Assembly (NCBI GenBank): GCA_013314775.1
Contig: JABUFB010000015.1
Span: 62,001 to 126,000 of the forward strand
From: Armatimonadota bacterium
GTDB lineage: Bacteria; Armatimonadota; Zipacnadia; Zipacnadales; JABUFB01
DNA: 64,000 nt
Direction: 5' to 3'
Shown: one piece after another, positions 29,525-48,768 of the stretch
Position numbering within the stretch: the stretch's first letter is position 1
Layout: each line of letters opens with the position of its first letter
Translations under genes and position numbers: made by a program
Notes under the pieces: generated by a model
What the model saw: only the letters and a program-made list of their open reading frames with translations
Told to the model about the DNA's origin: nothing
The model's database searches: none

Positions 29525-32500
29525 ATGCTGACGCGACTCATGACTGCAGTTCTGCTGGCAGGTCTGCTCGTCCCGGTGGTCGCTGAGCCGCAGGACCTTG
29601 TGGTAGACCCCTTCACGGATGCGCACGGATGGCAGGTGGGTGGCGCACGGGTGGGTTACCGGTTGGGCCGCAGTGGGCTGGAGGCCTCCCGCGAGAAATC
29701 CCCACCAGGGTGGGATGGCGCCCTGAAGCTGGTCTGCGACTTCAGCGAGAGGCGTTCGCGGGTGTCGGCGTATCACACGGGGCCTGCCATTCCGGGTGTC
29801 TGCCAAGACCTGGCTTTCTGGCTTTACGCCGAGGGGGGCGGCTCCGATCTGAAGTTGTCTTTGGAGGACGCGCGGGGTCGCTGGTTCGAGCGCGCTCTCG
29901 GTTCAGTGGACTGGACGGGCTGGCGTCAGATACGCGTTGAGGTGGGTTCCGGAGCGGACTGGCGCCCGCTTCTCCGGCGGGGCGAAGAACTTCTGCCGAT
30001 TCTGCACCCTGTGAACCTGCGCCAGATCGCCTTCCAGCGCCACGCTGACGCCGAGGAAATGCAGACCTATTACCTGGGGGCTCTGACGGCGCGGTGTGAC
30101 GTCCTTGCCGCGGACCGCGTCGAGGCTGCGGTTCTGACGGACCGCCCGGGCAACCTCTTTGAACTGGGGGAGATTGCCCGGATGACTGTTGCATTGTCGA
30201 ATTCGGGACAGGAGCCGGTGACGGGTCAGCTTGTGCTTCCGGAGGTCGCGACGGAGCCCAGGGATGTGAGTCTTCTGCCGGGCACCGCAACGGAGGTCAC
30301 CGTTGGTCTGCCGACGGATCGCCTCGGCTCCCACAGTGTCCGCATCCTCCTCGTCACCGCAGACCGCACCCGGGAGTGGACAGCGCGCTACGCCGTCACC
30401 CGTGCCGTGGCTGAGCGCCCCGCCGACACGGACGCCATGTTCGGTGCCTGCGGCAATTGGGTCGGTTTTCAGGCGGAGCAGCGTCCCCTGGTGCCGAGGC
30501 TGAATCGCGATGCCGGGATACGGTGGACGCGGTTTGGTATCGTCTGGCCCCTGGTCAACCCACGAGAGGGACTGTTCGCATGGAACGTGCCGCAGCGCGT
30601 GGACGGGGCCGTGGGAAGGGCGCTGTCCGCGCTGGAGACCGGGCTCAGCCGGCCCCACGCCGAGGCGCTCAACTGCCCCGATGCGGTGACCATTGCGCTC
30701 TGGACCCGTTGCGCCGGGGCGAATGGCGCGTGGCAGTTCCTGCTGAGCAAGTGGGAGAGCGGTGGCCCGCGCAACTATGGGGTGTATCTGCACGCGCAGA
30801 CGGGCGAGTTCCACTTTACGGGTACGTTCACAGCACTTGCAGGGAAATGGTCGGACTTCGGCGCGGGCGTCCGGGGCTGGGGAGACAACTGGCGTCATTG
30901 GGCCGCGAGTTACTCGCGCGAGGCGAGACAGGTGCGGCTGTATGCGGACGGTGCGCTGGTGCGGCAGTACGAGATAGACGGCGGCGACCTCGCTACGAAT
31001 GATGGGCCGTTGACCCTGGGCAGCGGCTTCCCGGGCGACATGGATGAGGTGATGATTTACCGTCGGGCGCTGAGCGGCGCGGAGGTGGCCGCTCTGGCAG
31101 CCAGGAAGGCGCCGCCGATGGAGGGGCTGGTGGCATGGTGGGACGGGGAGGGCGACGGGCGGGCAGTGGAGGACCGCTCGGGGAATGGACTGGACATTGT
31201 GGGAACCGAGCCCCACAACAAGGACACCGCCCGTGCGGCGCTCGCGGTCGGCATCAAGACGCTGGCGCAGTTGACGCATCCTCCCGCCTGGGCAGCCATC
31301 CGAGTCGGCGCCTCCAAGCCGAAGCCAGAAGCCTGGGCAGCGTATGTCGAGGGCGTCGTACGGGAGTACCGAGACGTGATCCAGCACTGGGAGATCTGGA
31401 ATGAGCCCAACAACCCAGTGTTCTGGAAGCCCAAGCCGGACCCGCAGGAGTACATGGACGTCCTGAGAGTTGCTTATGAGGCGGCCAAGCGCGGCAACCC
31501 CGACTGCACCGTGCTGATGCCCGGCCTCGCGGGACCGTGCGAGGGGCGTTATGGAATCGACTTCCTGGACGCGCTGCTGGAGCAGGGAGCGGCGCGGTAT
31601 TGCGATGCCATCTCCGTCCATCCATACCGGCACGGAACACCTGAGGAGACCGATCTGGAGGGGGACCTGCGGCACATCATGGAGATGGCCGAACGCAACG
31701 GCGGGCGGCGTCCGCTGTGGTTCACGGAATGGTCCTGGCCGACCCAGATACCGGGAGGGTCAACCGAGGAACGCCAGGCCCGCCTGCTGGCACGGGCGTA
31801 TGTGATCGCTCTTGGTACAGGCAGCGTGGAGCGGTTCTTCTGGTTCCGCTTGCACGACTCTGGGACCGACCGGTTCTATGATGAGGACAACTACGGCCTT
31901 TGCTACTCGGACCTCACGCCCAAACCTGCCTACTTTGCGCACAAAACGATAGCCGAGCTTCTCGAGGGAGCACGACCGGAGGCGAGTTGGGACCTGGGGC
32001 CGAAGGCCATGGGGCGGTGCTTCCGCACCCCGCGGGGCCGGGTCGCCGCCCTGTGGTGCCCCAAAGGGACGGAAACAGTGGCAGTTGACGTGGGCGAACG
32101 GTCGGTGCAGGTCGTCGACTTGATGGGGAACGAGCGGACCGTGGCCACGCGGGATGGGGTCCTGGTGCTGGAGGTCGGGGAGGACATGCAGTACCTATCG
32201 GGGCTGCCGGAGACAGCAGGGCCACGGGGCGCGCTAGTGGTGGCAAGTCCCATCAGGCTGCGTCCAGGTGAGAACGGCGTAGTGCCAGTCGCCATTGCGA
32301 ACCCGCTCCCAGGGGAAGAGCGGGGGGTGATCCGCCTGGAGGGAATTGAGCACACATTCACGGCGCCAGGTCGCGGGAAGGTGGAACTTGCCCTGCCCGT
32401 ACAAGTGGGCGACAATGCGCCTGTGGGCTGGCTGGAACTGCCCCTGCAAGTGCACTTCCTGGGACTGGACCTGAAACTGACGGCGCGGGTCGGCGTCCGG

Positions 32501-33127
32501 GGAACCGCCGATGATGCGGGCCCGGTGGGGGTCTGGCATCTGGACGAAGGAGTGGGCGAGGTCCTGACTGACAGCTCCGGTATGGGCCACCACGGCTCTG
32601 TGACGCAGCCGGAGTGGGTGGAGGGCAAGGCGGGGAGGGGGTTGCGCTTCCGCGGCGACGGCTATGCCGTGGTACCCGATGCACCCGCTCTCGACCTGCG
32701 GGATGAAGTCACGCTGGCCTTCTGGCTCAGACCGGAGGCAGATACCGGCACGTGGCAGTTCCCAGTGACGAAATACCGGGAGACCGACAAGCTGCGCAAC
32801 TACGGGGTCTACCTGTGGCCAGGCCGCCTCTCCCCGTGCTTCTCGGCCTCCCTAGAACACGGAGCCAGCCGTAATACCGACGTGGTATCCCTGGTCCGCC
32901 TGACGCCGGGACAGTGGTACCACCTGGTGATGACTTACTCAATGTTTGATGAAACCGTGCGGCTCTATGTGGACGGGGAGACTGTTGCGGAGTGGAGAAC
33001 ACAGGAGGGGGCCATGCTGACCAACGATGAGCCACTGCGTATCGGGACAGGGACCGCAGGGGTCATTGACGAGGTTGTGGTCTACCCGCGTGCTCTATCT
33101 GCGGAGGAGATCCGGGGGCTGATGTAG
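29525..33127 (+). CDS. very large secreted glycoside-hydrolase-like protein with inserted and terminal LamG domains
   Basis: The 1200-residue product has a signal peptide (LTRLMTAVLLAGLLVPVVA), a jelly-roll-like N-terminal domain to about 190, and a TIM barrel of the GH39/GH5-like clan starting near 320 (IRWTRFGIVWPLVNP). The barrel is interrupted at about residue 355 by a LamG-like insert and resumes near 565 (VGIKTLAQLTHPPAW), with HWEIWNEPNNP giving the acid/base E627 and WFTEWSWPT the nucleophile E735. A terminal LamG domain spans about 995-1200 (LRNYGVYLWPG, VDEVVVYPRALSAEEIRGL-like ending). It should act outside the cell on a polysaccharide; the substrate is unknown. Confidence 0.85.
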   Translation: MLTRLMTAVLLAGLLVPVVAEPQDLVVDPFTDAHGWQVGGARVGYRLGRSGLEASREKSPPGWDGALKLVCDFSERRSRVSAYHTGPAIPGVCQDLAFWLYAEGGGSDLKLSLEDARGRWFERALGSVDWTGWRQIRVEVGSGADWRPLLRRGEELLPILHPVNLRQIAFQRHADAEEMQTYYLGALTARCDVLAADRVEAAVLTDRPGNLFELGEIARMTVALSNSGQEPVTGQLVLPEVATEPRDVSLLPGTATEVTVGLPTDRLGSHSVRILLVTADRTREWTARYAVTRAVAERPADTDAMFGACGNWVGFQAEQRPLVPRLNRDAGIRWTRFGIVWPLVNPREGLFAWNVPQRVDGAVGRALSALETGLSRPHAEALNCPDAVTIALWTRCAGANGAWQFLLSKWESGGPRNYGVYLHAQTGEFHFTGTFTALAGKWSDFGAGVRGWGDNWRHWAASYSREARQVRLYADGALVRQYEIDGGDLATNDGPLTLGSGFPGDMDEVMIYRRALSGAEVAALAARKAPPMEGLVAWWDGEGDGRAVEDRSGNGLDIVGTEPHNKDTARAALAVGIKTLAQLTHPPAWAAIRVGASKPKPEAWAAYVEGVVREYRDVIQHWEIWNEPNNPVFWKPKPDPQEYMDVLRVAYEAAKRGNPDCTVLMPGLAGPCEGRYGIDFLDALLEQGAARYCDAISVHPYRHGTPEETDLEGDLRHIMEMAERNGGRRPLWFTEWSWPTQIPGGSTEERQARLLARAYVIALGTGSVERFFWFRLHDSGTDRFYDEDNYGLCYSDLTPKPAYFAHKTIAELLEGARPEASWDLGPKAMGRCFRTPRGRVAALWCPKGTETVAVDVGERSVQVVDLMGNERTVATRDGVLVLEVGEDMQYLSGLPETAGPRGALVVASPIRLRPGENGVVPVAIANPLPGEERGVIRLEGIEHTFTAPGRGKVELALPVQVGDNAPVGWLELPLQVHFLGLDLKLTARVGVRGTADDAGPVGVWHLDEGVGEVLTDSSGMGHHGSVTQPEWVEGKAGRGLRFRGDGYAVVPDAPALDLRDEVTLAFWLRPEADTGTWQFPVTKYRETDKLRNYGVYLWPGRLSPCFSASLEHGASRNTDVVSLVRLTPGQWYHLVMTYSMFDETVRLYVDGETVAEWRTQEGAMLTNDEPLRIGTGTAGVIDEVVVYPRALSAEEIRGLM

Positions 33128-34947
33128 ACAAAGACGCCCGAGTGTAACCGGATGGCAGATGGAACACCGTTCTCATGCGCGTGATCGCTCCTGCTCGGTT
33201 CAGCATCGTCACTCGTGGAGCGCGCGGCCCGGGCGCTGCTGCTGGGGGACTTCGAAGTTTCCGGGCGGGGAGCGGTGCCACGGGGCGCGCTGCGGGAAGA
33301 GGTTGGCGGGACGGCGGTCCTATCAGGGCTGGCGCTGGAGCTGCAGGGGGCAGGGCGCGCGCATGCAGCGGCTGACCTCTGCGATGGAGGCCCCGGAATG
33401 ATCGATGCGCCCGGTTCCGTTGGTCCCCAGTTCGCCCTGCCCTTGGGAGACACATCAAGCTGGCACAGGGCGAAATGGAAGCCATCCAGCTTGTGGTCTA
33501 CAGCCGAGACCGCAGCCTGCACAATTGCCAACTAGCGGGCGAGCGTCTCGCCGGTCCCGGCGAGGCGTTTCTGGCTGCGCCCGAAGTGTCCGTGGTCGGC
33601 TCGTTCCTCACGGGGAAACCCGGGACCTACCCGGTTGACTACGACGGCTGGCACGCGGACGTGCTGCTGCCACCCGCACCGGTTGACATCCCGGCGGGTG
33701 ACTTCCAGGCATTCTGGGTCCGAATTCGCGCGCCCAGAGACCAGCCTCCCGGCACCTACCGCGGCGAAGTCAGGATCCGGGCGGGCTCGGAGGTCACCAT
33801 TGCTTTCCCGTTGGCCGTGACTGTCTGGCCCTTCGCGCTGCCCGAACGGCCTTCGCTGGACAACGCGCTGAGTTTCGATGAAGGGCAAGTGGCGGCAGTC
33901 TACGGGAAGCCTGACAGGGAAATGGTGCGCAGGTATGCGGAGTTCCTGCTGCGCAACCGCATCGAGTTCACCAGCATCTACCGCAAAACCCCGCCCGACC
34001 TCGAGCTCCTGGCTGAGCTGCACCACAATGTGCGGCCCTTCCGCTTCAACATACTGGGCCTCAACCGCTACATGGCCGAGATCAGCCCTCAGGAGTCGGA
34101 GCCGCACGTCAGCTTCGTGCTGAGTCAGCTGCGTAACGTTGTGCCGGAGTTGGACAAGAGGGGCCTGCTGAAGTATGCCTACCTGTACGGGTTCGACGAG
34201 TTGCCACCGTCCAGGGCGCAGGACATCGCGCGGATTGCCGGCGCCATCCATGGCGAGTTCCCTGAGTTACCGATCCTGACCACTGCCGCAGACCCGGCCT
34301 ACGGCGCCGATGGGGTCCTGAGTGAGGCGATCGCCGCGTTCTGCCCTGGCGTTGCGAGCTACGATCTCGAGCGTGCGGACCTCGCGCGCGCCAAAGGCAA
34401 GAAGGTCTGGTGGTACTTCTGTCAGGGAGCCTACCTCCCGAACATCAACTGGTACCTGCAGTACCCGCTTATTGACGTTCGCATGCTGTTCGGCACGATG
34501 GCCGCGCGTTATCGCCCCGACGGAGTGCTCTACTGGTCCATCAATTCCTGGACCAACGGCGGCCTTGCCCGGCCCCTTGAGGGCGGGCCGCTGTTTCCTG
34601 ACATCGCCCCCGGTTGGAAGGGCGATCACGGGGAGGGCCTGCTGGTGTACCCCGGGCCGGACGGACCGCTGTCTTCGGTGCGGCTTGAGAATGTGCGGGA
34701 CGGGTTAGAGGATTTTGAGTACTACACGTTGCTCCGCCAACGGGTTCAGGCCCTAGCAGAGATGAAGCAGTTTTCTGATCCCGGGGCCGCCCCACTGCTG
34801 CAGTCGGCGCGGCGCTTGATGGCGGTTCGCCCTCACTTGGTGGCAGACAAGACGCGGTTCAGTCGCGACCCGGCGACCCTGAGGGCGGAGCGAGAGCGCA
34901 TCGCAAGCACGATTGTAGCTCTGGGTGAGTTGCTACGGGCCGAATGA
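33128..34947 (+). CDS. DUF4091-type glycoside-hydrolase-like protein, probably frameshifted near its N terminus
   Basis: An open frame with ATG at 33475 encodes 490 residues matching DUF4091 proteins: an N-terminal beta domain (FQAFWVRIRAPRDQPPGTYRGEV), a barrel (LLRNRIEFTSIYRK, YGFDELPP, VWWYFCQGAYLPNINWY) and the C-terminal hallmark LENVRDGLEDFEYYTLLRQRV. The same frame upstream reads GRHIKLAQGEMEAIQLVVYSR, the conserved start of the beta domain, but has no start codon before a stop at 33373. A plausible N terminus (VERAARALLLGDFEV from 33215) lies in another frame, so a single indel near 33450 is inferred. Bases 33128-33214 hold nothing recognisable. Confidence 0.75.
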
Positions 34948-35061
34948 ACCGCTTGATGAGTGGATGGGGATCGTGCATCGTCTCAGTACCGGCGAAGCGC
35001 AGGCGCACTGACCGACCAGGAAACGAGATGCGCCGCGACCGCGGACCGGAAGGGGATCACA

Positions 35062-37482
35062 GTGAAGCGTGTGTCAATGGCTGATCGGGGGACAATTGTC
35101 GGCGGCGTGTTGCCGTTCGTCCGTGCACGTCTTGGTGCTCTGGCCGTCTGGGCGACAATTCTCGCACCGTTGCCGGCGATTCCGGGTGTTGCAGGAGCCG
35201 ACGTTGCGCCTCATCCCGAGTGGCGCAACTCGCTGGTCCCGCGCGGCCAGTCAGGCCCGATGCTCACGCTGGCGCAGAGCGGGAAGACCGCCTACACGAT
35301 CCTGGTTCCGGGACGCCCGACCGGCCCGGAGCAGAAGGCCGCCGAGGATCTCGCGAAGTGGCTTGGCGAGATGACGGGTGCGACCTTCCGCATCGTTCGG
35401 GAGCGCCCTGGCTATCGAGTCACAGGACGCGAAATCAGCATCGGAAACACCCGCTTCGCTTTGCGCACCGGGGTCGCGAAACCCGAGACCGACCTCAGCC
35501 GCTGCGGTTACAGCATCGCCGTCAGAGGCAGCTCCCTGTTCATCCTGGGCGGGCGGCAGCGCGGGGTCATCAACGGCGTGTACTGCCTGCTGGAGGAGGA
35601 CCTCGGCTGCCGTTGGTATGCCCCCGGAACGCAGTACATCCCCCGGCGATCTACACTGCGGTTCAGACCCGTTCAGCGCACTTACGTCCCGGCCCTTGAG
35701 GACCGCCGCGACCCCTACAACGCCGACACGATGTTTGACGTGGACTGGTCGCTGCGTAACAAGACCCTGGGCGCCTGGGCGAAGGTCCCGCCGGAGTGGG
35801 GTGGCCATCCCGGCTGGCCGGGGGCGCATACCTTCCAGCGCTATGTGCCTCCATCGCTCTTCGGCGACCATCCGGAGTACTTCGCCGAAGTGGCCGGCAC
35901 CAGGAACCCCGCCCAGCCCTGCCTGAGCAACCCGGACGTTCTTGCCCTGGTCATTCGACAAGTGCGCGCCCAACTGCGGGACCGGCCTGAGACGCGAGTA
36001 CTGGATATCTCGCTCAACGACCTGCCTCCCAGCTCCTACTGCACTTGCCCGGACTGCAAGCGTCTCACCGCGGCAGAGGGTAGCTTCATGGGTCCGCTCC
36101 TGCAGTTCATCAACGCAGTGGCGGACGCGATCAAGGATGACTACCCTGAGACCAAAATCAACACCCTCGCCTACCAGGGAACGGTTGCCCCGCCGAGGAC
36201 AATCAAGCCCCGGCCCAACGTATGCTTCTGGCTCTGCACTGATGCCCGCTGGTCGCGGCTCAATGACTATGTGGGGGACATCGAGGCCATCAGGAAGGCC
36301 TTCGAGGGATGGAGCGCCCTGGGAGCCAACATCATCGTCTGGGACTACCCGTCCTCCTTCCATTATCTGCAGATCAACCACAACATGCCGGTCTACCAAA
36401 GGAATCTACAATTCTACATCAGGCACGGCGCGACCGGGGTGATGTACCAGTACGCCGATGCGGAGTCTAACCACGGCGCGGACCACAGCTTCATGCTGAG
36501 CTGGACCGTCGCGAAACAGATGTGGGACCCATCCCGCGACACGTGTGCGCTGATCCGCGACTTCAACTACGGCTACTATGGGGCCGCCGCGCCGTACATG
36601 CAGCAGTACGACGACATGCTGTGGGAGGCGTGGGAGCAGTGGAGCAAGGACAAGAGCCACAGCCCCATTGATCGAGCCTTTGTCGCGCGGGGGTGGAGGC
36701 TACTGAAACAAGCGGAAGCGCTGGCGCAGGGCGACGAGGCGCTGACCAAGCGCATCAAGACCGCGCAACTGCCGCTCATGTACACCATGGCAACTTACGG
36801 CCCAGGCCAGGACTCCGAGGCGTTGGACCTGGACGACTTCGAGAAAACCGCTCGCGACGCCGGCATGCGCTACATCCACATTGATGGCGCCGGGCCGAAC
36901 GTGGACCGCTACTTCGCGAAGCTGCGGGAGTTGTTCGCTGTCAAAGTGGACGACATCGGGTGGGTGGAACTGAGCGATGCCTGGCGGTTCGCTCGCGATC
37001 CCGGCGATGTGGGACTGGAGCAGCGGTGGTTCGCGGCGGACTTCGACGACACCCAATGGACGACGATCAGCTCGGACCGGGGCTGGGAGGAGCAGGGCTT
37101 CGCAGGCTACGACGGATACGGCTGGTACCGGCAGATCGTCGAAGTGCCCGCAGACGTGCTGGCGCGGGATGACCTCAAGATGCTGTTCCTGGCTGTGGAC
37201 GAGCAGGCGGAGGTGTTCATCAACGGTGAGAAGGTCTTCGAGCACACAACCGCCTCGACGGGTCGGAGCGTGGCGGCGCTCTGGAAGCAGCCTTTCATGT
37301 TCGACCCGAAGCCGTGGCTGAAACCGGGGCGCAACGTACTGGCAGTGCGTGTGCATGACTCCACGATGCAGGGAGGCATCTGGCGGCCGCATTACTTCGC
37401 CTGGGGCAAGGGCCTGACAGCCGACAACTTCGAGGACGTGGTCAGGATCCGGGGCGAAGCCTCGGGTGCCGCGGGCCGCTGA
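35062..37482 (+). CDS. secreted DUF4838/GH67N-like protein with C-terminal sugar-binding jelly roll
   Basis: An 806-residue protein. A GTG at 35062 with the GGAAGGGGATCA ribosome site is favoured over an upstream in-frame start. A signal peptide (VRARLGALAVWATILAPLPAIPGVAGA) is followed by an alpha-glucuronidase-type N domain (EQKAAEDLAKWLGEMTG, FILGGRQRGVINGVYCLLEEDLGCRWYAPG), then the DUF4838 barrel (LDISLNDLPPSSYCTCPDCKRL, VWDYPSSFHYLQINHNMPVY, SWTVAKQMWDPSRD). The last 130 residues form a GH2-like galactose-binding fold (WYRQIVEVPADVLARDDLKM, EVFINGEKVFEH). No catalytic pair can be named with confidence. It follows the DUF4091 gene in the same direction. Confidence 0.85.
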   Translation: MKRVSMADRGTIVGGVLPFVRARLGALAVWATILAPLPAIPGVAGADVAPHPEWRNSLVPRGQSGPMLTLAQSGKTAYTILVPGRPTGPEQKAAEDLAKWLGEMTGATFRIVRERPGYRVTGREISIGNTRFALRTGVAKPETDLSRCGYSIAVRGSSLFILGGRQRGVINGVYCLLEEDLGCRWYAPGTQYIPRRSTLRFRPVQRTYVPALEDRRDPYNADTMFDVDWSLRNKTLGAWAKVPPEWGGHPGWPGAHTFQRYVPPSLFGDHPEYFAEVAGTRNPAQPCLSNPDVLALVIRQVRAQLRDRPETRVLDISLNDLPPSSYCTCPDCKRLTAAEGSFMGPLLQFINAVADAIKDDYPETKINTLAYQGTVAPPRTIKPRPNVCFWLCTDARWSRLNDYVGDIEAIRKAFEGWSALGANIIVWDYPSSFHYLQINHNMPVYQRNLQFYIRHGATGVMYQYADAESNHGADHSFMLSWTVAKQMWDPSRDTCALIRDFNYGYYGAAAPYMQQYDDMLWEAWEQWSKDKSHSPIDRAFVARGWRLLKQAEALAQGDEALTKRIKTAQLPLMYTMATYGPGQDSEALDLDDFEKTARDAGMRYIHIDGAGPNVDRYFAKLRELFAVKVDDIGWVELSDAWRFARDPGDVGLEQRWFAADFDDTQWTTISSDRGWEEQGFAGYDGYGWYRQIVEVPADVLARDDLKMLFLAVDEQAEVFINGEKVFEHTTASTGRSVAALWKQPFMFDPKPWLKPGRNVLAVRVHDSTMQGGIWRPHYFAWGKGLTADNFEDVVRIRGEASGAAGR

Positions 37483-38419: not shown

Positions 38420-41400
38420 ATGTCGGCCAAGGCCAGGCACGTCGCCGCGCTTCTTTTCATGCTTTCCCTCTGGGCGCCCACTGCCCATCCCGCCACTGCT
38501 GCACCGCTCGACGACCTGCGGACGCTGTTCACCGCCGATCCGGCCCTTGCGTTCCAGCAGGCTGCGGACCTCCTCGACGCATGCTTGGCTACGGAGGATC
38601 TTGCTCAGGCGCTGGAAGTGTTCCGGGTGGTGGGTAGCCGGGCCGCGCAACTGCAGGCTTGGGCTCCGTGGGACGCGATGGCGGCTCGTGTCGAACCGAT
38701 GGCGCGCCAACGGGGCGACTGGAAGGCGGTGGAGGAACTGCTGACCGCCCGGGTCCAGTGCCAGGTCTACGTCCCGGGTGGGCTGCGCCCTCCGTACTGG
38801 GGTAGGGGGCAGCATTTCGTCCGCTTGTTCGAGGCTGCGCGCCAAGCGCGGCAGAAAGCCGGGCTTCCCCCGAGCGCTTCGTCCTACGAAGGGCTCTACG
38901 AGGAACTCCGGGCGCTCAGCGAGGCCGACCCGGCGAGCTACTGGATCGAGACCCAACCTGTCTCGGCCATACTCCTGCCCATCATCCGGACTGTGGAGGA
39001 GGCCGGCGCGGCGGCCCAGTATTCTGACATGCATCGCGGTGTGTTGCGCCTCATCCAGCAGCTTGAGGGCGCCCTTGATGCCGGGGGGAGTGATCTGTCG
39101 CTGCGCGACTACACGCGGCTTGCCCACTACATCGGAACTCACATTGGGCAGCCGGGCGGCGAAGCAGTGGTGCCCCCTCTGCGCCAACTGGTGGACCGTT
39201 GCGGCGATGCGAACACCGGCGGAATGACGCTGGAGGGAGTTATGGAAGCCTGCGCCCGGCGGTGGTCCGGTCGAGACGACGTCTTCCGGGACACATTCTA
39301 CTGGAGCCTCACGCATTTCCGTCCTGCGAGGCACCAGCCACCGGTCGCAGGGGTCGGGCTATGGTGCCAGAAGCTGGCAGTCTTCGGGCGCGAGGGTGAA
39401 GCGGTGACGCTGGTGCACCGGCTGATGGGGATGGCTGCACAACGTGGCCCTGGTCTCCCTGCCTGGGGCGCCCATCGATTGCTGTGGCGCGGCTCGCCCG
39501 ACAGCGTCCTGCAGCAGGTACTCGACCTAACGGTGCGCGAGGGGTGCGACATGGCCACCAACCCTCCGAACTGGTACCCTCACCCCCCTCTCACTTTCGT
39601 CAAGGACTTTGCGGGGCAGGTCTCGGAGATCACGCGTCTCGCTCCCGACGAGCGGCGTCCCGTCTGGGCCCGCAAGTGCGCCGAGGCGCTGCAGGACATG
39701 GCGCTTTCGCTGGAGGACGCTGCAGCGGTCGCTGACGGACTCAATCGGGCGGCGGATGTCTACGAGCAAGGCAGCTGGACAGATCCCGCGGAAGAATGTC
39801 GGGCGCTGGCAGCAGCGATTGCGTCGAGTGACCCGACCGCACTTCTGCAATCGGGCCTCATGGCCGCACGCTCTGCCGCATCCGCAGGTGATTGGGGCGC
39901 CGCTATCCGACGGCTTGCCGACGTCACTGCCGCCACGCAAGGGCCCTCAGTGGAACTGCTCCAGGCTGCGCTGCTACTGCAGGAAGCGTACCTGCGCCTG
40001 GGCAGGGCCGACGATGCTGAGCGGTGGTTCACGCGGGCACATCAACTGGTTCACTCTCTGCCTCTCAGCGCCGCTGAGAAGGCGAATTACCTGGTATCGA
40101 TGGCAGCGCTGTGTGACCTGGCGACTGGGGATGCGGCCTGCATTGAGCGCAAGACCTTCCTGTTGCAGCAGGCCGAGGCCGCGGCGAAGGAAGCGGGGCT
40201 CGACCTGCTGCGGGAGAAAATCAGCAGTCAACTGGCCGATGTCGCCCTGGTCGGTGGAGACCTGGAGACGGCGAAGACCGCGCTGATCCAGATCGTGGAT
40301 CGCACCGAGACCAGACGGGAGCAACTCGCATTCGACCCAGTGTTGCGCCAGCACTGGTTTGCTGACAACATCGGCCCTTACCGGAAGCTGATGCGGGTCG
40401 CCGCGCTGACGAACGATCCGTTGCTTGCGCTGTCTTGCGCTGAGCGCATGCGGGCGAGGGCACTGGTGGATCAGCTCTCGTGGCAGAAGGTAGATATGGC
40501 GGTGAACCTGGCGCCGGAAACGCAAGAGCGTCTCAAGCGACTGCGGGCGATGCGAAAAGAGGCCTACGGGCTCCTGCAGCAGGCGCTTGGGGGAGGAAAG
40601 CCTGAGGTCGAGACGGATGACCTGCGCGGGAAGTACATGCCCATCCGCGGCCAGTACATGCCGATCCGTGGGATGTATATGCCCATCCGCGGGCCACTGG
40701 ATCGAAACGTCCTGGCCAGTGAGGCAGACATCGCACACCTGAAGGAGCTGCTGGGTAAGCTGGCCAGCGAAGAAGCGGCCATCGAGTCGGCAGTCCGCGA
40801 GCAGGTTCCAGCCTACGAGATGGCCAGCGCGACGCGGGTCCCGACGGGACAGGAGATAGCAGATGCGGTGGCGGCCCACCCGAAGCTGGGCGTTCTTCAC
40901 TACACCTTCACGGACCAGGGCCTGGCAGTGGTGGCGATGGGGCCGGGTGGCGGGCCGAAAGTCGCGCACATTGAAGTAAGCGGGGATGCGCTGTGGGAGC
41001 GTATCGGCAAGTTCCGAGAGATGATCTGGGAACGCAAGGTGGAGGCCTTTCAGGAAGCCGCGGACCTGTTCACGCTACTGGTCTTGCCGGTGTATGGCGT
41101 CCTTCCGGGGGCGGAACGGGTCTGGGTCATCGCCGACGGGGCTCTGCAACTCGTGCCCTTTGGGGCTCTGTTGGGCCTGGACAAGGTCTTTTTGGCATAC
41201 CATTGCGCAGTGGCCACTGCTCCGTCCCTCTCGCTGGCGCTCGTGTCTCGTGGGGAACGCCCGGCCGCCGGGAAGCCCGCGTTGGTGGTGGCGGCCCCGG
41301 ATACGGGTGCATTGTCTCTGGCCGGAGATGACACCCGTGGCAAGTACATGCCGATCCGGGGGATGTACATGCCGGTCCGGGGAGCCTACATGCCAATCCG

Positions 41401-42001
41401 CGGCGAGGAGGGCGTGAGCAGCGCTCTGACTGCCATGGCGATGATCCCCCTGCCCGGTGCGAAGGCCGAGGGCGAGGCCATTGCGGACATGATTCCGGGG
41501 TCTGAACTTGTCAGCGGCAAGGAGGCAACCAAGGAGCGATTGCTTGCCGAGGGCAGCGACTGCGGCTTGCTGCACATAGCTACCCACGGCTACGCCGACC
41601 CGGATTTCCCGGAGTTCTCCGGCCTGTTGCTGGCTTCCGGCGATGATGTGAAGCCATACGATGTGCTGACAGCCCAGGAGGTCTACACGTGGCCGCTGAA
41701 GGCGCGGCTGGTCACCCTGTCGGCATGTCAGACGGCGCTGGGCAAGGACGTGGAGGGTGAGGGACTTCTCGGTCTGTCGCGGGCATTCATCTATGCCGGA
41801 GCGCAGGACGTGCTGTGCAGCCTTTGGCCGGTGTCGGACGAGAGCACGAAGACGCTGATGACCGCGTTTTACAAGGGCCTGGCGGAAGGCCAGTCGGTCG
41901 AGAACGCGCTGCGCAGTGCTCAGAGGGCGCTGATGCAGGTGACAGAGACCAATCACCCGTTCTTCTGGGCAGGCTTTACGGCGGTGCGAGGCCCTGAGTG
42001 A
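38420..42001 (+). CDS. secreted or exported TPR-CHAT peptidase with two YMPIRG heptad-repeat blocks
   Basis: A 1193-residue protein opening with a signal peptide (HVAALLFMLSLWAPTAHPATA). A helical TPR-like region follows to about 700, then a linker and a C-terminal CHAT (clan CD cysteine peptidase) domain with H1056 in HIATHGYADP and C1103 in LSACQTALG. Two insertions are unusual: residues 738-758 consist of KYMPIRG, QYMPIRG, MYMPIRG, and residues 975-995 of KYMPIRG, MYMPVRG, AYMPIRG, each preceded by DDxRG. The first lies between TPR linker and CHAT; the second lies in a loop within CHAT, after LVVAAP. ATG 38420 follows GGGAGAGG. Target unknown. Confidence 0.88.
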   Translation: MSAKARHVAALLFMLSLWAPTAHPATAAPLDDLRTLFTADPALAFQQAADLLDACLATEDLAQALEVFRVVGSRAAQLQAWAPWDAMAARVEPMARQRGDWKAVEELLTARVQCQVYVPGGLRPPYWGRGQHFVRLFEAARQARQKAGLPPSASSYEGLYEELRALSEADPASYWIETQPVSAILLPIIRTVEEAGAAAQYSDMHRGVLRLIQQLEGALDAGGSDLSLRDYTRLAHYIGTHIGQPGGEAVVPPLRQLVDRCGDANTGGMTLEGVMEACARRWSGRDDVFRDTFYWSLTHFRPARHQPPVAGVGLWCQKLAVFGREGEAVTLVHRLMGMAAQRGPGLPAWGAHRLLWRGSPDSVLQQVLDLTVREGCDMATNPPNWYPHPPLTFVKDFAGQVSEITRLAPDERRPVWARKCAEALQDMALSLEDAAAVADGLNRAADVYEQGSWTDPAEECRALAAAIASSDPTALLQSGLMAARSAASAGDWGAAIRRLADVTAATQGPSVELLQAALLLQEAYLRLGRADDAERWFTRAHQLVHSLPLSAAEKANYLVSMAALCDLATGDAACIERKTFLLQQAEAAAKEAGLDLLREKISSQLADVALVGGDLETAKTALIQIVDRTETRREQLAFDPVLRQHWFADNIGPYRKLMRVAALTNDPLLALSCAERMRARALVDQLSWQKVDMAVNLAPETQERLKRLRAMRKEAYGLLQQALGGGKPEVETDDLRGKYMPIRGQYMPIRGMYMPIRGPLDRNVLASEADIAHLKELLGKLASEEAAIESAVREQVPAYEMASATRVPTGQEIADAVAAHPKLGVLHYTFTDQGLAVVAMGPGGGPKVAHIEVSGDALWERIGKFREMIWERKVEAFQEAADLFTLLVLPVYGVLPGAERVWVIADGALQLVPFGALLGLDKVFLAYHCAVATAPSLSLALVSRGERPAAGKPALVVAAPDTGALSLAGDDTRGKYMPIRGMYMPVRGAYMPIRGEEGVSSALTAMAMIPLPGAKAEGEAIADMIPGSELVSGKEATKERLLAEGSDCGLLHIATHGYADPDFPEFSGLLLASGDDVKPYDVLTAQEVYTWPLKARLVTLSACQTALGKDVEGEGLLGLSRAFIYAGAQDVLCSLWPVSDESTKTLMTAFYKGLAEGQSVENALRSAQRALMQVTETNHPFFWAGFTAVRGPE
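40631..40693 (+). repeat. first YMPIRG block: three 21-bp coding repeats
   Basis: Three consecutive 21-base units encode KYMPIRG, QYMPIRG and MYMPIRG. Codon use differs between units (CCC/CCG, CGC/CGT), so protein sequence rather than DNA has been conserved. The flanking DDLRG is repeated before the second block as DDTRG. Confidence 0.97.
41342..41404 (+). repeat. second YMPIRG block within the CHAT domain
   Basis: Three 21-base units encode KYMPIRG, MYMPVRG and AYMPIRG in the loop between an early CHAT strand and the helix beginning GAKAEGEAIADM. One Ile is replaced by Val. The block lies about 650 bases after the first and has the same length and the same lead-in. Confidence 0.97.
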
Positions 42002-42065
42002 GGGGCCGCATTTTTGTCGCCGCAGGTTGCTGTCGATCACCGCAGTGTGCGCGAGGGAGTATCAC

Positions 42066-45000
42066 TTGCCACAGGAGCACCATTGCCCTGCGTGCGGTCG
42101 CGCGATTGCACCCGACGACCGCTTCTGCGGCCGCTGTGGGACCGCGGTTGCGGATAAGCCGGCGTCGGCTCCCCGGGCTGCCCGGGCTTCGCTCGGCGAG
42201 GTGTTCGCCCACCTGCGTTCCGGTGAGCAGCGGCCCGCTACCATTCTCATGACTGACGTCTCTGGGTTCAGCAGTCTCGCGGAAGGCGTGGAGCCCGAGT
42301 GGTTGTACCACCTGATCAACCAGGTGTTCGAAGAGCTGGTCGACTGCCTCGTTGCCCACGGCGCCCACATCGACAACTACGTGGGTGATGAGATCGTTGC
42401 GCTCTTCGGGGTCCCCTTCGCCCAGGAGAAATCCGCGGTGCGAGCCATCCTCGCCGCCCTGTCCATGCGGGAACGCCTGGACCGCCTGAACCGGGCAGGA
42501 CGGTTCGGGAACGTGCCTCTGGGCATCCACACCGGGATCAATGCGGGGCCCGTGATGGTCGGTCCCGTGGGGCACCGCGAACACGCCGACTACACCGTGA
42601 TCGGCGACACGGTGAACGTGGCCAAGCGGCTGGAGAGTGAGGCCCCGGTGGGGGAGGTGTACGTCAGCAGGGCAGTGCGTGACGCCGCGGCAACTGAGAT
42701 CGATTTCGAGTCGGTCGGCAGTGTGTCGCTACGGGGACGCCGGGAGCCTGTGGAAGTCTTCCGGGTGCTTGGGGCGCGGCGAAGGTCGAAGGCTTCACTG
42801 AGCAGCGAGGCGTCACCTGCCCGGGCGACAGTCCCTCGGGAACGAGAACTGGCCGAGTTGTCGCGACTGTCGGAGGAGGCCAGCTCAGGCAACGTGCGGG
42901 TCGCCTGCGTGACAGGCCCGCCCGGCATCGGCAAGTCGGCGCTGGTGGCTCACTGGCTGCAGAGCAACGCGCTCTCGGATTTCCGGATCCTCTCCGCCTT
43001 CTGCCACGCTTGCGGTCAGCAGTTCCCGCTACTTCCCTTGGCAGACATACTCTCCCAAGTCACCGGGCTCCGCGTGGAAAACTGGCCGCCCCAGGTGGTG
43101 GGGGACTTTGGGGCGGGGTTGGCCGCTCTGGGGCTGGCGGAATCTCACCGCCGATCGTTGTGCGGTGCGCTCAGCCACTTCTCTGTCCGCCCTCATCAAT
43201 ATGAGGCCTCGGATGCCCAGGGGCTGGGTGAGAGTCTGGCTGCGCTGATTGGGAGAATCACCGCTTCCGGCCCGGTTTGCCTGGTGCTGGAGGACATTCA
43301 CTGGTGCGACGAGGGCACACAACAGGTGCTGGTTGAGGCGCTGGCCAGTTACTCGCGCTGGCCCCTGCTGGTTTTGCTGACCGCGCGCCCTCCACTGCCC
43401 GACTGGATGATGGCGGCGCTGCCTGTCACACTCGTGGACGTGCGACCACTTGCGCGGCGGGCGATGGAACAGTTGGTGGCGTCCTGGGCATCGCCGCAGA
43501 TTCTCCCAGCTACAACAGTGCGGGCAATCTGCGACCGGGCGGACGGCCATCCGTATTTCGCGCGCGAACTGGTGCGGGCGTTGCGTGAGCGCGCCACACC
43601 TTCTGCCGGATCAGACGGGGGACTGCCGGACACACTTCAGGAGCTGTTCCTCTCCAGGCTTGACAGCCTGCCGCTGCCCCTGCGCCAGACCGTTCAGGCT
43701 GCCTCGGTGGTCGGGGAACCTTTCTCGGCGTCCTTATTGGCCTCCTGTCTGGAGGGCGACGTGCCTGTCTCCGATGGCATCCTGTGGCAGGCCGCTCAAG
43801 CCGGCCTGCTAAGGCCGGGTAGCGGGGCTGGACAGTATGTCTTCGGCCCGCGCCTTCTGTTTGATGCTGCGTACGCCACGATCCCTCCTTCACGCCGGCG
43901 CGACCTGCACGCGAGGATCGCGACTCATCTGGCTGGGCAGCTGAGCACTATGGGCGCATCTGCAGTGCATGCGGCAGCACACCATGCTTATCTGGGCTAT
44001 GGAGACGAGCGTGCCCTGGACCTGCTGATGCGTTCCGCCGAGCAGTACCGGGCGCAGTACGCAAACCGCCATGCGATCCAGGCGGCCGGCAGAGCGCTGG
44101 AGATAATCGTTTCTCTACCCGATCCCGCGACCCGACTTGTGCAGCGACTGGAAGCGTTGTTGTTGCTTGCTCAATCGCACCAGGTTGTCGGGGAGTTGGG
44201 TGCGGCAGAAGGGGCACTTGCAGAGGCTGAGGTTCTCGCTGAGGACTGCACGGATTGCGAGATCAATGGGCGCATCGCGCTGGCATCGGCGACACTGCAG
44301 TGGATGCAAGGCGACCTGAGCAAGGCGAGCGCAGGCTTCGCGCGGGCGCATCAGATGTGGGAGGCACTGGGTAACGCGACCCGCGCCGCCCAGGCGTTGG
44401 TTGGCGGCGGATTGTGCGCCGGGCAGTCAGGTGACCGGGAAGGCGCGCTGGCGCTGTTCGAGCGCGCGGCCGCCGACCCGCGCGTGGAACCCTGGGTACA
44501 CGCGGCTGCGGTCAATAACGCGGGCATCATGTTGCTTGAGGACGGACGGTACGAGGAAGCGGAGCCCTACCTTAGCGCTGGGCTTGACGCGAACGAGCGG
44601 GATGACGATCGGCGGGGGCGCGCGCAGTCGAAGACGAGCCTGGGCGAACTCAACTACCGGCGGGGCCGCCTCGACGTTGCTCGAGAATTGCTGGAGCAGG
44701 CCGTCGCAGAAGCCGGCGAGATCGAGGATGCATCGTGTCTGCCCCTGGCGACGGCATACCTGGCGCGGGTGCTGTCCGCCTCGGGTGGCGCGTCTGTGGC
44801 ACGGTCTTTGCTGGCAGCAATCGCCCGGGATGTCGAAGTGCTCCAGCCCGACGTGGAAGCCCCCTTGCGGGTGGCAGAACTCGAGGCCACGCTCCCCTGC
44901 GCCGTGGTCGCAGCGGACCAGGCCGCCCGCGCCCAGGCGCGCGGCCTGCGAGCTCTTAGCAATTGGCCCGCCTGCCCTGGCCAGGTCAGCGCCGTCTGCC

Positions 45001-45281
45001 AGAATGCCTACGTGGAGATCCTGTGCGTGGGCGTTGAAGGAGCCCTGCTCTCCGGACACCGCACCACCGGCCCGTGGTTCGACAGGCTGCGCGATCATGC
45101 AGACTCCGCCGTGGATGTCCATCTCCGCAGGTATGCGGAATGGCTCCTGAGCCTTGCTGACCAGGGCCAGGAAGTTCCGCCTTTCGCGGACCAGCCGCAG
45201 TCTGACAGCGTTTCCGCGACCGATCCCGGAACCATCTTCAATGTCCGGGCTCGGCGCCTGCGCGAGGCGCTGGGCCGGTGA
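42066..45281 (+). CDS. class III adenylate/guanylate cyclase fused to an ATPase and TPR region
   Basis: A 1071-residue cytoplasmic protein. It starts with a zinc ribbon (CPACGR, FCGRCG), then a class III cyclase domain with ILMTDVSGFSSLAE, DNYVGDEIVALFG (metal aspartates) and YTVIGDTVNVAKRLES. An AAA/STAND-like ATPase follows with Walker A VTGPPGIGKSALV and Walker B LVLEDIHWCDE, then repeated TPR-like helices to the C terminus. TTG 42066 is chosen because GAGGGAG lies eight bases before it; an in-frame TTG at 42027 would add 13 residues. It follows the CHAT gene by 64 bases in the same direction, suggesting a shared transcript. Confidence 0.88.
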   Translation: MPQEHHCPACGRAIAPDDRFCGRCGTAVADKPASAPRAARASLGEVFAHLRSGEQRPATILMTDVSGFSSLAEGVEPEWLYHLINQVFEELVDCLVAHGAHIDNYVGDEIVALFGVPFAQEKSAVRAILAALSMRERLDRLNRAGRFGNVPLGIHTGINAGPVMVGPVGHREHADYTVIGDTVNVAKRLESEAPVGEVYVSRAVRDAAATEIDFESVGSVSLRGRREPVEVFRVLGARRRSKASLSSEASPARATVPRERELAELSRLSEEASSGNVRVACVTGPPGIGKSALVAHWLQSNALSDFRILSAFCHACGQQFPLLPLADILSQVTGLRVENWPPQVVGDFGAGLAALGLAESHRRSLCGALSHFSVRPHQYEASDAQGLGESLAALIGRITASGPVCLVLEDIHWCDEGTQQVLVEALASYSRWPLLVLLTARPPLPDWMMAALPVTLVDVRPLARRAMEQLVASWASPQILPATTVRAICDRADGHPYFARELVRALRERATPSAGSDGGLPDTLQELFLSRLDSLPLPLRQTVQAASVVGEPFSASLLASCLEGDVPVSDGILWQAAQAGLLRPGSGAGQYVFGPRLLFDAAYATIPPSRRRDLHARIATHLAGQLSTMGASAVHAAAHHAYLGYGDERALDLLMRSAEQYRAQYANRHAIQAAGRALEIIVSLPDPATRLVQRLEALLLLAQSHQVVGELGAAEGALAEAEVLAEDCTDCEINGRIALASATLQWMQGDLSKASAGFARAHQMWEALGNATRAAQALVGGGLCAGQSGDREGALALFERAAADPRVEPWVHAAAVNNAGIMLLEDGRYEEAEPYLSAGLDANERDDDRRGRAQSKTSLGELNYRRGRLDVARELLEQAVAEAGEIEDASCLPLATAYLARVLSASGGASVARSLLAAIARDVEVLQPDVEAPLRVAELEATLPCAVVAADQAARAQARGLRALSNWPACPGQVSAVCQNAYVEILCVGVEGALLSGHRTTGPWFDRLRDHADSAVDVHLRRYAEWLLSLADQGQEVPPFADQPQSDSVSATDPGTIFNVRARRLREALGR

Positions 45282-45638
45282 CGGGGACCTCCCCAGGCTT
45301 GACCGAGCGTTGAAGCTCCGTGCGCTGCGTGACAACTCCTCATCAGGGCCCACGGAGCTACCCCCTCAGGGCTTGGTTTGGGGGACAACCTACCGTTCTC
45401 CGAACAAGGCTAGCTCCCTGCGTTCTCACCAGAACTCACGCCCCAGCATTCGACTTTCTTTCGGATTCAACAGCAGGAGAACTTGCCCGCGACGTCGTAT
45501 CTCATAATCGAATGGCATGGTATTCCGTCATCTCTGCGCGGAAGACGTCCCTTGCTTCCCTCTGCTTGATGCCAGGCGCTGGCCTGTCATTTGGAGTTGG
45601 AGCCCTGTGGGCTTCGCAATCTCTGGAGGAGGACGACC
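45282..45638. other. gene-free stretch before the prepilin gene
   Basis: No CDS is supported in these 357 bases. The sequence becomes locally AT-richer around 45440-45530, where a promoter for the prepilin gene might lie, but no good -35/-10 pair is seen. A GGAGGAGG ribosome site ends the stretch. Confidence 0.4.
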
Positions 45639-46388
45639 ATGCAAAGACGCGGATTCACGCTCATCGAGTTGTTGGTCGTGATTGCGATCATCGCAATCCT
45701 GGCGGCGATTTTGTTCCCCGTGTTCGCCCGGGCCCGGGAGAAGGCCCGGCAAGCAAGTTGTCTGTCCAACCTCAAGCAGATCGGCCTTGCGTTCATGATG
45801 TACGCTCAGGACTATGACGAGTGCTGGGGTTTCACAACCTGGTATGACTGCTACGACGCTTCCAACAACTGGCGACCGGGCGCGATGGGCTGGGCAATCT
45901 CCCTGCAGCCGTACATCAAGAACCGGCAGATGCTAGTCTGCCCAAGCGACGCGGAGAAGGCGTGCTTTTCCAAGCCGGGTGGCAACCAGGGCTACTTCCC
46001 CATGCTCCAGGCTGCGGGCTACAACCCCGCATCCGACACTCAGCCCGACCTTGCCGCCGCCTTCCCGCTGAGCTACGCCGCCAACGTGTACCTGGGCTGG
46101 AGCCAGAACGCCAACTCGATGGCTCAGATCCAGAACCCGGCAAGGTGCTTCCTTGTTTCGGAGCTGGGCAAGGGCAGTTACGCATACTCAGTGTGGTACA
46201 TGTACCCTGGGTACGGGACGCCGACCCGATGGGAAGCGGGGGCCCGGCATAATGAAGGCCGCAACTACGCCTTCTGCGACGGGCATGCCAAGTGGACCAA
46301 GGAGCTCTGCGCGGCGGGTACGGCGGCCGGCACGGTTCTGACGACCTATCAGAACGCAGGTGTTTACACCTACCCGTCAACTCCATAG
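45639..46388 (+). CDS. type II/IV pilin-like (DUF1559) prepilin
   Basis: A 249-residue prepilin. A short basic leader MQRRG is cut before [20 protein letters not shown], the N-methylation helix, followed by [24 protein letters not shown] and the DUF1559 core with [14 protein letters not shown] and a C-terminal [11 protein letters not shown]. This exact style is abundant in Armatimonadota and Planctomycetes and is the main taxonomic clue in the window. The ATG is fixed by GGAGGAGG seven bases upstream. A separate transcript is likely, since a terminator follows. Confidence 0.95.
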
Positions 46389-46408
46389 AGCAATCTTGTT
46401 ACTACTTC

Positions 46409-46451
46409 AGGGCGGTGCCGGCGAGCGAAACGGCCGCACCGCCCTTTCTCT
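46409..46451 (+). terminator. rho-independent terminator after the prepilin gene
   Basis: AGGGCGGTGC (46409-46418) pairs with GCACCGCCCT (46436-46445), a 10-base stem with a 17-base loop, followed by a T-rich TTTCTCT. It lies 20 bases after the prepilin stop. Confidence 0.75.
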
Positions 46452-46489
46452 CGGTGGCACTCTCCCGTGTCACCGCATGGAGGCGAGCC

Positions 46490-47974
46490 ATGCTCCGCGC
46501 GTTCCGGTATTGCCCCCAATTCGTGCTTTCAGTCCTCGTGGTCGCGCTCTTTTCGGCAGCCGACGCCGCCATTGTAGTCCAGCCTTACCTGCAGAACCCG
46601 ACCGAGACCACCATGGACATTCTTTGGTGGACTGACACGGAATGCGCTGACAACCGAGTGGAGTATGGTGACGGCTGGCAATCCCGGGTTGACGTCACAC
46701 CCGTTTTCGTGCCGACGATGGGGCGCTACCTGTGCCAGGCGACAATCACCGGCCTTGCCCCCGGGACACCATACCCCTACCGGGTGATCTCGGGCGAGGA
46801 GACCAGCGGTGAGTACACTTTCGCCACCTCGCCTTCTGCCGACCAGGCAGCAGTGCACGGGGTGCACATTGGCATACTGGGGGACGGGAGGACGGATAAC
46901 GAGGCCGTCCGCCGGCGACACCGCCAGATCGCGCACCTCGCTCGAAGTCGCGGTGCCGACTTGCTTTTCGAGATCGGTGACATGGTCTACGACGGATCTC
47001 GGGCACACTGGGACTTCCTGATGCAGCGGGTCCTGACTACGAGCGACCCCGAGAACGCAGACTGCCCAACGGCGAGCTTCGTGCCCTACTTGATGGCAGT
47101 GGGAAACCATGAAATCTACGGTGGGGAGGGAGGCTACGCGAAGGGCGGACTGGCCGATACCATGCCGCGGTATCAGGCTATCGTAAGCAATCCCGACAAC
47201 GAGACCACGGATCCTCGTTGGGCGGAGCGATACTACAGCCTGAAGTATGGGCCGATTACGTTCATCGTGCTGGATGCGAACAACACCAGTGCCGACGAAC
47301 TGGACAATCACCGTGATATCCCCGATGGGTTCAGCCCCGACTGGGAGCCAGGCAGCGAGCAGTACCTATGGATGCTTGAGCGCCTGGAGCAAGCGCGGTC
47401 GGAGTCTGCGTTCACCATCGTCATGTCGCACCCCGCGTCCTACAGCCGAGGGGTTCACGGGACCAGTGACAATCCTGGCACCGACTACCAGACGGGTTAC
47501 GAATTGCGTACACTGGACCCGGTATTCCGGCAGTACGGGGTTGATGCGGTAATCCAATCACACGACCATCTGGTGGAGCACTGCGTCACAGGACCTCCCG
47601 GCTGGTGGAGACAGAAGGGGGCGTTCGAGCCGGAACATCCCCAGCACTCCGCCTGGCTGGACGATCCCGCAAACCTGAACTACCTGGTGATCGGCAATTC
47701 AGGTGAGGCCAGCCGCGGGGCGCACCCCAACTGGGCTGACTGGATGGATATCCATCGCGATGACCCTGAGGCACCAGTCGGAACATTCTACTCACGGTTC
47801 TTCTACCCGTGGGTGGGATTGAGCCAGATGGCCAGCTACCTTGACCTGCGCGTGATCAAGCGCGGAGCGACCTGGGAAGCCACTTTCTCAATAGTGCGCC
47901 GGGACGACGATACAGGCGAAGTGGCTGAGTTCAATGAGTTCATTCTGACCCGTCGCGACCCCGTCGGGGGCTGA
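46490..47974 (+). CDS. secreted purple-acid-phosphatase-like metallophosphoesterase
   Basis: A 494-residue protein with a signal peptide (YCPQFVLSVLVVALFSAADA), an N-terminal fibronectin-like domain (VVQPYLQNPTETTMDILWW, GLAPGTPYPYRVISG) and a calcineurin-like phosphoesterase domain. Metal ligands are visible in order: GILGDGR, FEIGDMVYDG, MAVGNHEIYG, VMSHPASY and QSHDHLVEH. This arrangement is that of purple acid phosphatases, releasing phosphate from esters in the periplasm or outside. The ATG has GGAGGCGAG before it. Confidence 0.9.
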   Translation: MLRAFRYCPQFVLSVLVVALFSAADAAIVVQPYLQNPTETTMDILWWTDTECADNRVEYGDGWQSRVDVTPVFVPTMGRYLCQATITGLAPGTPYPYRVISGEETSGEYTFATSPSADQAAVHGVHIGILGDGRTDNEAVRRRHRQIAHLARSRGADLLFEIGDMVYDGSRAHWDFLMQRVLTTSDPENADCPTASFVPYLMAVGNHEIYGGEGGYAKGGLADTMPRYQAIVSNPDNETTDPRWAERYYSLKYGPITFIVLDANNTSADELDNHRDIPDGFSPDWEPGSEQYLWMLERLEQARSESAFTIVMSHPASYSRGVHGTSDNPGTDYQTGYELRTLDPVFRQYGVDAVIQSHDHLVEHCVTGPPGWWRQKGAFEPEHPQHSAWLDDPANLNYLVIGNSGEASRGAHPNWADWMDIHRDDPEAPVGTFYSRFFYPWVGLSQMASYLDLRVIKRGATWEATFSIVRRDDDTGEVAEFNEFILTRRDPVGG

Positions 47975-48238
47975 GAATCTCGAAAAGAGCGGAGCCGGAT
48001 CGCCCGCGCCCGGTTTGGTAGGTGGCAGACACTTTCACGACGACCTGGAAAAAACCCGTGACCGCAGTCACTCACGCCCTATGCTCCACCAGCGCTTAGC
48101 CCTGCCGGCGCTACCCACCCCCTGGGCGCTGCCAACCTCCCTGCCCGCTGAAACCCATGAATGTTGCTTGCTCACCGATCCTCACTGGCAACTATTGCCG
48201 CCACGGAAAGCACCGGCGAAAAATCTTTCCTATGATGC
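47975..48238. other. gene-free stretch before arsR
   Basis: About 260 bases between a phosphatase gene and the arsR promoter. I see no gene or RNA structure; a short frame (48015-48242) is not supported. Base composition falls toward AT near 48210-48270 where the promoter begins. Confidence 0.4.
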
Positions 48239-48267
48239 TTGACAACGCTATAATATATGGTTATATT
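48239..48267 (+). promoter_or_regulatory. arsR promoter overlapping an ArsR-type operator
   Basis: TTGACA (48239-48244), a 17-base spacer and TATATT (48262-48267) form a strong sigma70 promoter. The inverted repeat AATATA (48252-48257) and TATATT (48262-48267), with a 4-base centre, overlaps the -10 box, so bound ArsR would block RNA polymerase. The ATG lies 12 bases after the -10, giving a leader of only a few bases. Confidence 0.75.
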
Positions 48268-48279
48268 GCCAAGTAGACT

Positions 48280-48588
48280 ATGAAAACTGTTAACGACGCC
48301 GACTACAAACGACGTGCCCAGGTTCTGAAAGCGCTCGGCCACCCCAGTCGCCTCGCCATGGTTGAGTCTCTGTTGCAGGGGGAGAAATGCGTCTGCGAAC
48401 TGCAGGAGTTGGTCGGTTCGGATATGTCCACCGTCTCCAAGCACCTGTCGGTTCTGCGGAACGCAAATCTCGTGGCCGATCGCAAGGAAGGCCTCAAGGT
48501 GTATTACAGCCTGCGGATGCCGTGCGTCGCACGGTTTTTCGAATGCGTTGACGAAGTCCTCGGGAGCAAATCCGGATTCCCGAGCTGA
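48280..48588 (+). CDS. arsR: ArsR-family metalloregulatory repressor
   Basis: A 102-residue winged-helix repressor. VLKALGHPSRLAMVESLL is the start of the family fold. GEKCVCELQELVG contains the ELCVCDL-type cysteine pair (C46/C48 approximately) that binds As(III), and MSTVSKHLSVLRNANLVADRKEGLKVYYSLRM is the recognition helix and wing. No ribosome site is present, consistent with near-leaderless expression from the promoter at 48239. It probably controls the ArsP-like permease and redox genes downstream and represses itself through the overlapping operator. Confidence 0.93.
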   Translation: MKTVNDADYKRRAQVLKALGHPSRLAMVESLLQGEKCVCELQELVGSDMSTVSKHLSVLRNANLVADRKEGLKVYYSLRMPCVARFFECVDEVLGSKSGFPS

Positions 48589-48768
48589 TCCGGCGACGCG
48601 GAATGCTCGCCGAGAAGGTCCTTCATATTTGCCTGTTATGCCAAACAACCACCTGCGCTGATGCCGAATGGCCTCGGCGGCCCCGGGCGAGCGGGATCGG
48701 TCTGCTCGGATACCCGGCAGATAGCTGCAGCTCCAAACACACTCGACAAGTAATCGTGGTGATCTCTG

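Follow-up and report, generated by a model that had tools for sequence, protein, structure and literature searches.

Matched arrays of YMPIRG heptads in two loops of a putatively exported TPR-CHAT peptidase of Armatimonadota

Investigation of a CHAT-domain gene in the window, a 64,000-nucleotide stretch of an Armatimonadota contig (JABUFB010000015.1), revealed two matched blocks of tandem YMPIRG heptads, a paired feature that is real and conserved and, as far as could be found, undescribed. Since the two loops that carry the blocks are kept together in relatives, the heptads are probably a docking or switching device and not a chance repeat. That the matched arrays act as paired docking or gating elements controlling a separase/Csx29-like protease is a mechanism we infer and to which we give an even chance.

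The CHAT protein and its two heptad blocks

The open reading frame P0001 (positions 38420-42001, forward strand as for all features given here) encodes a putatively exported TPR-CHAT protein of 1193 aa from the ATG, as read from the ORF call, the Pfam CHAT match and the fold match to Csx29 and separase. The CHAT domain (PF12770, 41060-41986, residues 881-1189, E 1.7e-66, 225 bits) contains the catalytic His1056 (HIATHG, 41585-41587) and Cys1103 (LSACQT, 41726-41728), both invariant across the aligned CHAT set; profile match and His/Cys pair place the protein among the CHAT peptidases of clan CD, and from its sequence it is predicted to be a catalytically complete cysteine peptidase. A putative signal peptide was read by eye at residues 1-27 (MSAKARHVAALLFMLSLWAPTAHPATA, 38420-38500), similar N-termini are found in homologs from three other genomes (G026a, G002 and G035), and the protein thus seems to be exported. 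It is encoded by the only CHAT gene in the whole 6.1-Mb genome. Of the PADLOC defence models, only BovA was matched, weakly and partially (21 bits, residues 1048-1175), over a stretch that corresponds to the generic CHAT core.

Block A (40616-40693, residues 733-758) consists of DDLRG followed by the heptads KYMPIRG, QYMPIRG and MYMPIRG (40631-40651, 40652-40672 and 40673-40693; residues 738-758), and block B (41327-41404, residues 970-995), in the CHAT beta1-alpha1 loop, consists of DDTRG followed by KYMPIRG, MYMPVRG and AYMPIRG (41342-41362, 41363-41383 and 41384-41404; residues 975-995). The original prediction had placed the heptads at exactly these residues, led in both blocks by DDxRG, and this observation stands with the small correction that one of the six has PVRG for PIRG; it had also put one block outside and one inside the CHAT domain, and the Pfam limits of 881-1189 do leave block A outside and block B inside. 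The heptad pattern had six matches in the window DNA versus none in 100 dinucleotide shuffles, and across the 6.1-Mb genome it was found in blocks A and B only (six matches; reversed-pattern control, none). Chance and a DNA-level repeat are ruled out by the shuffles, the genome count and the divergence of the codons.

Regarding the fold, AlphaFold models were obtained for residues 480-1193 (pTM 0.75) and for the full-length protein (pTM 0.55). The best structural match is Csx29 (Z 29-31), followed by separase (Z 26 to 5fc2_B and 5u1s_A; VIA-align to 5fc2_B, rmsd 3.3 over 295 residues), with further matches to gingipain (Z 19) and SAVED-CHAT (Z 17.6). Block A lies between helices 699-722 and 768-795, at the tip of the helical hairpin that connects the TPR region with the peptidase, while the beta1-alpha1 loop that holds block B borders the active site in caspase-type folds. 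In a comparison of 87 CHAT ORFs of the phylum, loop A has about 40-50 aa in the heptad clade versus a median of 12 aa in 54 other CHAT proteins, the beta1-alpha1 loop has 60-63 aa versus a median of 32 aa elsewhere, and both YxPxRG arrays are absent from the non-clade proteins of this set. Both blocks are modelled as exposed flexible loops in the two runs, with a pLDDT of 33-40 for block A and 30-42 for block B in the full-length model and similarly low values (about 30-40) in the shorter one.

Distribution and conservation of the heptads

A protein search of 61 related genomes detected close homologs in G026 (two), G035 (two) and G002 and fragments in G023 and G025, and one further homolog, from another family (G064), came from scanning 291 Armatimonadota genomes with the heptad pattern. 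The co-occurrence of heptads and CHAT domains, for which the original prediction had proposed to search, was seen for every array in the 291 genomes: all tandem YxP[IV]RG arrays sit in CHAT genes, confined to one monophyletic clade (reversed control, none) that has a support of 100/100 in a tree of 67 proteins. The blocks could also have proved peculiar to the window protein, which would have told against the original prediction, and yet the motif is present at six other homologous loci in four other assemblies, which rules out an assembly artefact of one genome. Both blocks are present in all six genes sequenced at both sites, with numbers of heptads in A and B of 3+3 in the window, 2+3 in each of G026a, G026b, G035a and G035b, and 2+2 in G064; the G002 gene is interrupted by a contig break within block A. 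The residues xRG stand before each block in all cases seen.

A scan that covered 84,980 species genomes detected the motif in six CHAT stretches, from MAG records of Candidatus Zipacnadia and Armatimonadetes bacterium CG2_30_59_28, as well as in four stretches that are non-CHAT. These four matches outside the Armatimonadota, and one viral match, were rejected as short or doubtful frames or as having PVSG for PVRG. A search for tandem P[IV]RG without the Tyr was likewise set aside, as its additional matches were non-CHAT and the reversed control gave similar numbers. No tandem array was detected in the region in six CHAT loci from Cyanobacteria, Actinomycetota and Bacteroidota plasmids (CHAT frame read in five), and two viral relatives only were found for deepening the alignment.

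Several heptad-CHAT genes of MAGs contain frameshifts, at a T-run in L225 (G064), a GC-dinucleotide run in L224 (G035) and a C10 run in L226 (G026), which represent assembly errors or a slippage-prone gene. In L082 (G065, contig C318, 1849-2630), a CHAT gene of the same lineage has the sequence immediately ahead of block A fused to that immediately behind block B, so that both blocks and half of the peptidase are missing; this is a decayed copy or a misassembly.

Regarding sequence conservation, none of the 32 heptads from seven homologous genes departs from Y, P, R and G, while the codons vary, a count to be read with the fact that the search pattern itself demanded Y, P, [IV/M], R and G, so that fully degenerate copies beside the arrays would go uncounted. 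The second position is M in 27 heptads, I in 4 and T in 1 (YTPIRG, the final heptad of G026b), the fourth is I in 23 and V in 9, and the linker residue is free. The pN/pS of the heptads is about 0.12, a pooled pairwise count over related repeats that is indicative only. The selection at the protein level that had been claimed for the window gene is thereby borne out across its relatives. These data also bear on neutral slippage, in which repeat-tolerant loops would have gained functionless tandem copies: the copy number does vary (2-3), and other units are repeated in other CHAT loops, such as the 13-mers of L180 (G051), but strong conservation with diverged codons is seen in two array types, the same motif is kept at two distant sites, and both sites are kept in six of six genes, which makes this explanation highly improbable.

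The two blocks have changed together in G064, where all four heptads of both blocks read YIPIRG, with Ile at a position that the pattern left free. Such a coupled M-to-I change at sites about 230 residues apart suggests one common binding surface for both arrays; gene conversion between the blocks is a possible alternative source of the joint change.

Candidate roles of the arrays

Other CHAT proteins carry a second type of array at the position of block B, in their beta1-alpha1 loop. The tandem RPIxxPx pattern is present in four of the 291 Armatimonadota genomes (G057, G132, G160 and G161; control, zero), in CHAT proteins L087, L085 (G057), L256 (G132), L257 (G160) and L258 (G161), as 4-9 perfect tandem heptads of the form RPI[DI]xP[SE] (RPID[TQ]PS type). 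Here R and I are invariant in 44 of 44 heptads, with heavily diverged codons that include both AGR and CGN for Arg, and pN/pS is 0.30. These genes lie in a clade distant from the YxPxRG clade in the 67-protein tree and have no YxPxRG block at the hairpin; the distant position and the different motif indicate an independent origin. The separate rise of two unlike heptad arrays in one loop, beta1-alpha1, suggests that CHAT enzymes are commonly controlled there.

RPI arrays in viral contigs were also inspected and are not CHAT. Three RPI proteins from family f21 have signal-peptide-like N-termini as well. Repeats of other kinds were observed in L171 (G084), a distant CHAT protein whose hairpin region (VLVRGQRPPVRGGEVLVRGQRPPVRDGIVLVRGQKPPIRE, residues ~532-577) has [VI]RG at seven-residue intervals and whose CHAT loop has no array, and in L180 (G051), where units of 13 residues (PGNAAVPxAPSTP) are repeated in tandem in another CHAT loop (residues ~501-555) and the usual catalytic motifs of the ORF were absent in a scripted scan.

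Docking or gating at the beta1-alpha1 loop fits all array types, and this class of explanation is fairly supported. A precedent is separase, in which disordered inserts serve as docking sites for partners and obstruct the active site (PMC10317155). By the proposed mechanism, both arrays of the window protein would bind the same surface, be it on a partner that they share, on one another or in the TPR groove of the protein itself; the two or three heptad copies would provide avidity, and docking would open or shut the active site in the manner of the disordered inserts and autoinhibitory loops of separase. On binding, pairs of heptads may adopt a hairpin of the sequence Y-M-P-[IV]-RG-x-Y-M-P in which RG forms the turn.

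A special case of docking is the cohesive pairing put forward in the original prediction. In the form considered here, blocks A and B would each be a beta-hairpin (strands YMP[IV] and xYMP joined by the turn RG, Tyr of one strand facing Pro of the other) and would pair in the same molecule or across molecules, which would lock the CHAT domain or build up oligomers. AlphaFold did return a hairpin in block A (746-749/752-755) in both models and one in block B (983-986/989-992) in the full-length model, where both follow the layout YMP[IV]-RG-xYMP in the same register, but at a pLDDT of about 30-40 these hairpins are a hint, and block B is not a hairpin in the shorter model. No member has fewer than two heptads in either block, and two are what a hairpin needs as a minimum; the joint M-to-I change in G064 is likewise in keeping with pairing. 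Against it, a three-strand meander of 5-residue strands and 2-residue turns would, by our reasoning, run into a conflict of hydrogen-bond parity, and the RPIDQPS arrays of the same loop contain two Pro in each heptad and have no second block to pair with. Pairing between blocks is thus not a general role of such arrays, and for the window protein it is considered unlikely.

The other mechanism of the original prediction, autoprocessing, in which the CHAT domain would cut its own sites between the Arg and Gly of PIRG and so release or activate the peptidase, is less probable still. Its basis stands in part, as Arg and Gly are invariant in all 32 heptads, the peptidase core is flanked by the flexible blocks, and Arg-specific enzymes that cleave themselves are known in clan CD. 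In the alignment at the Trp motif, Lys1144 (41849-41851) takes the Trp+8 position of the P1-Arg-binding Asp of separase, a position held by Arg in G026b and Ser in G064. The mapping uses published residue numbers (PMC9729208, PMC10317155): the separase Asp at the conserved Trp+8 is D2070 in human and D2151 in Chaetomium (PMC10317155), and Csx29, which cuts its substrate after a non-Arg residue, has K670 at this position (PMC9729208). The Asp of WxVxD was tried as the separase S1 Asp and rejected, as the published mapping falls four residues later, on the Lys. Separase itself self-cuts in a disordered insert (PMC10317155), and the acids left as possible S1 anchors are Asp1140 and Glu1017 (in the invariant LPGxxxE), the latter near the position of gingipain Asp163 (PMC4626109), so that Arg cleavage could still occur even though the main supporting residue is missing. 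Autoprocessing is weakened by the replacement of this Asp and by the RPI arrays of the same loop, in which Pro follows nearly every Arg and cleavage there is therefore unlikely; an invariant P5 Tyr and P3 Pro in four to six copies are also more than a cut site needs.

Returning to docking or gating, a candidate for the partner pathway is encoded next to the CHAT gene. After a gap of 25 nt follows a gene (42027-45281) for a protein with zinc ribbon, class III adenylate/guanylate cyclase, AAA and TPR regions (Pfam), which would be a likely pathway partner. Full-length orthologs of this cyclase (49-52% identity) were detected in G064, G025 and G026 among 14 genomes searched, and the ortholog lies directly 3' of a heptad-clade CHAT gene in four of the four genomes having one (these three and the window), although the contigs of G025 and G026 hold only the CHAT C-terminus and the blocks are not visible in them; the G026 tail beside the cyclase is a letter-for-letter match to the tail of G026a. 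Two observations tell against this reading: heptads are present in G035 and G026b with no adjacent cyclase ortholog, and the CHAT proteins have signal-peptide-like N-termini while no export signal is evident in the cyclase protein, so that a direct complex is not obvious. The upstream neighbours are glycoside-hydrolase-like, forming a sugar-active run (29525-37482) of a Laminin_G_3/Glyco_hydro_cc protein, GH123 and DUF4838 with a GH2 N-domain, and downstream of the cyclase are a DUF1559 pseudopilin-like protein, a purple acid phosphatase-like protein and an ArsP_1 permease (45591-49947). None of the seven neighbouring genes scanned with Pfam is a Cas gene, including Cas7-11 and Csx30.

A broader reading would see in these proteins an undescribed CHAT regulatory class, whose tandem heptad arrays lie in a loop bordering the active site and arose two or more times, each time with another motif; one clade would have an array at a second site too, the two acting as a matched pair and linked to an adjacent nucleotide cyclase. 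We put this forward tentatively, as somewhat less probable than the paired docking or gating of the window protein.

Comparison with known systems

To our knowledge, the way in which bacterial CHAT proteases are switched on has been established for very few cases (Craspase and SAVED-CHAT), and a conserved motif that is repeated in two defined loops offers a direct way into this regulation. A description of the YMPIRG module was not found in the literature searched, in agreement with the original prediction, which knew of no module of this kind. As an analogy only, the C-terminal domain of RNA polymerase II is a docking array of disordered tandem heptads with Tyr1 and Pro3; it has no homology to the YMPIRG arrays and, unlike them, is eukaryotic, phosphorylated and much longer. 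The CHAT proteins with RPI arrays (G057, G132, G160 and G161) share the loop, the seven-residue tandem arrangement and the constraint at the protein level, but differ in motif.

Csx29 of the type III-E CRISPR system (Craspase), which works bound to Cas7-11, has in common with the window protein the TPR and CHAT architecture, the His/Cys dyad and a Lys at the position of the separase S1 Asp. No heptad arrays are known in Csx29, whereas the window protein has two, lacks a Cas gene among the scanned neighbours and is putatively exported. Separase (clan CD, C50) has the same caspase-like fold with a TPR-like region, but differs in its Arg-binding Asp (Lys in the window protein), in inserts that are not tandem heptads, and in its securin partner, the like of which is not known for the window protein. 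The likeness extends to flexible regulatory inserts near the peptidase, including a beta1-alpha1 insertion (PMC4626109, PMC10317155), and the YMPIRG loops parallel the regulatory inserts of the eukaryotic enzyme.
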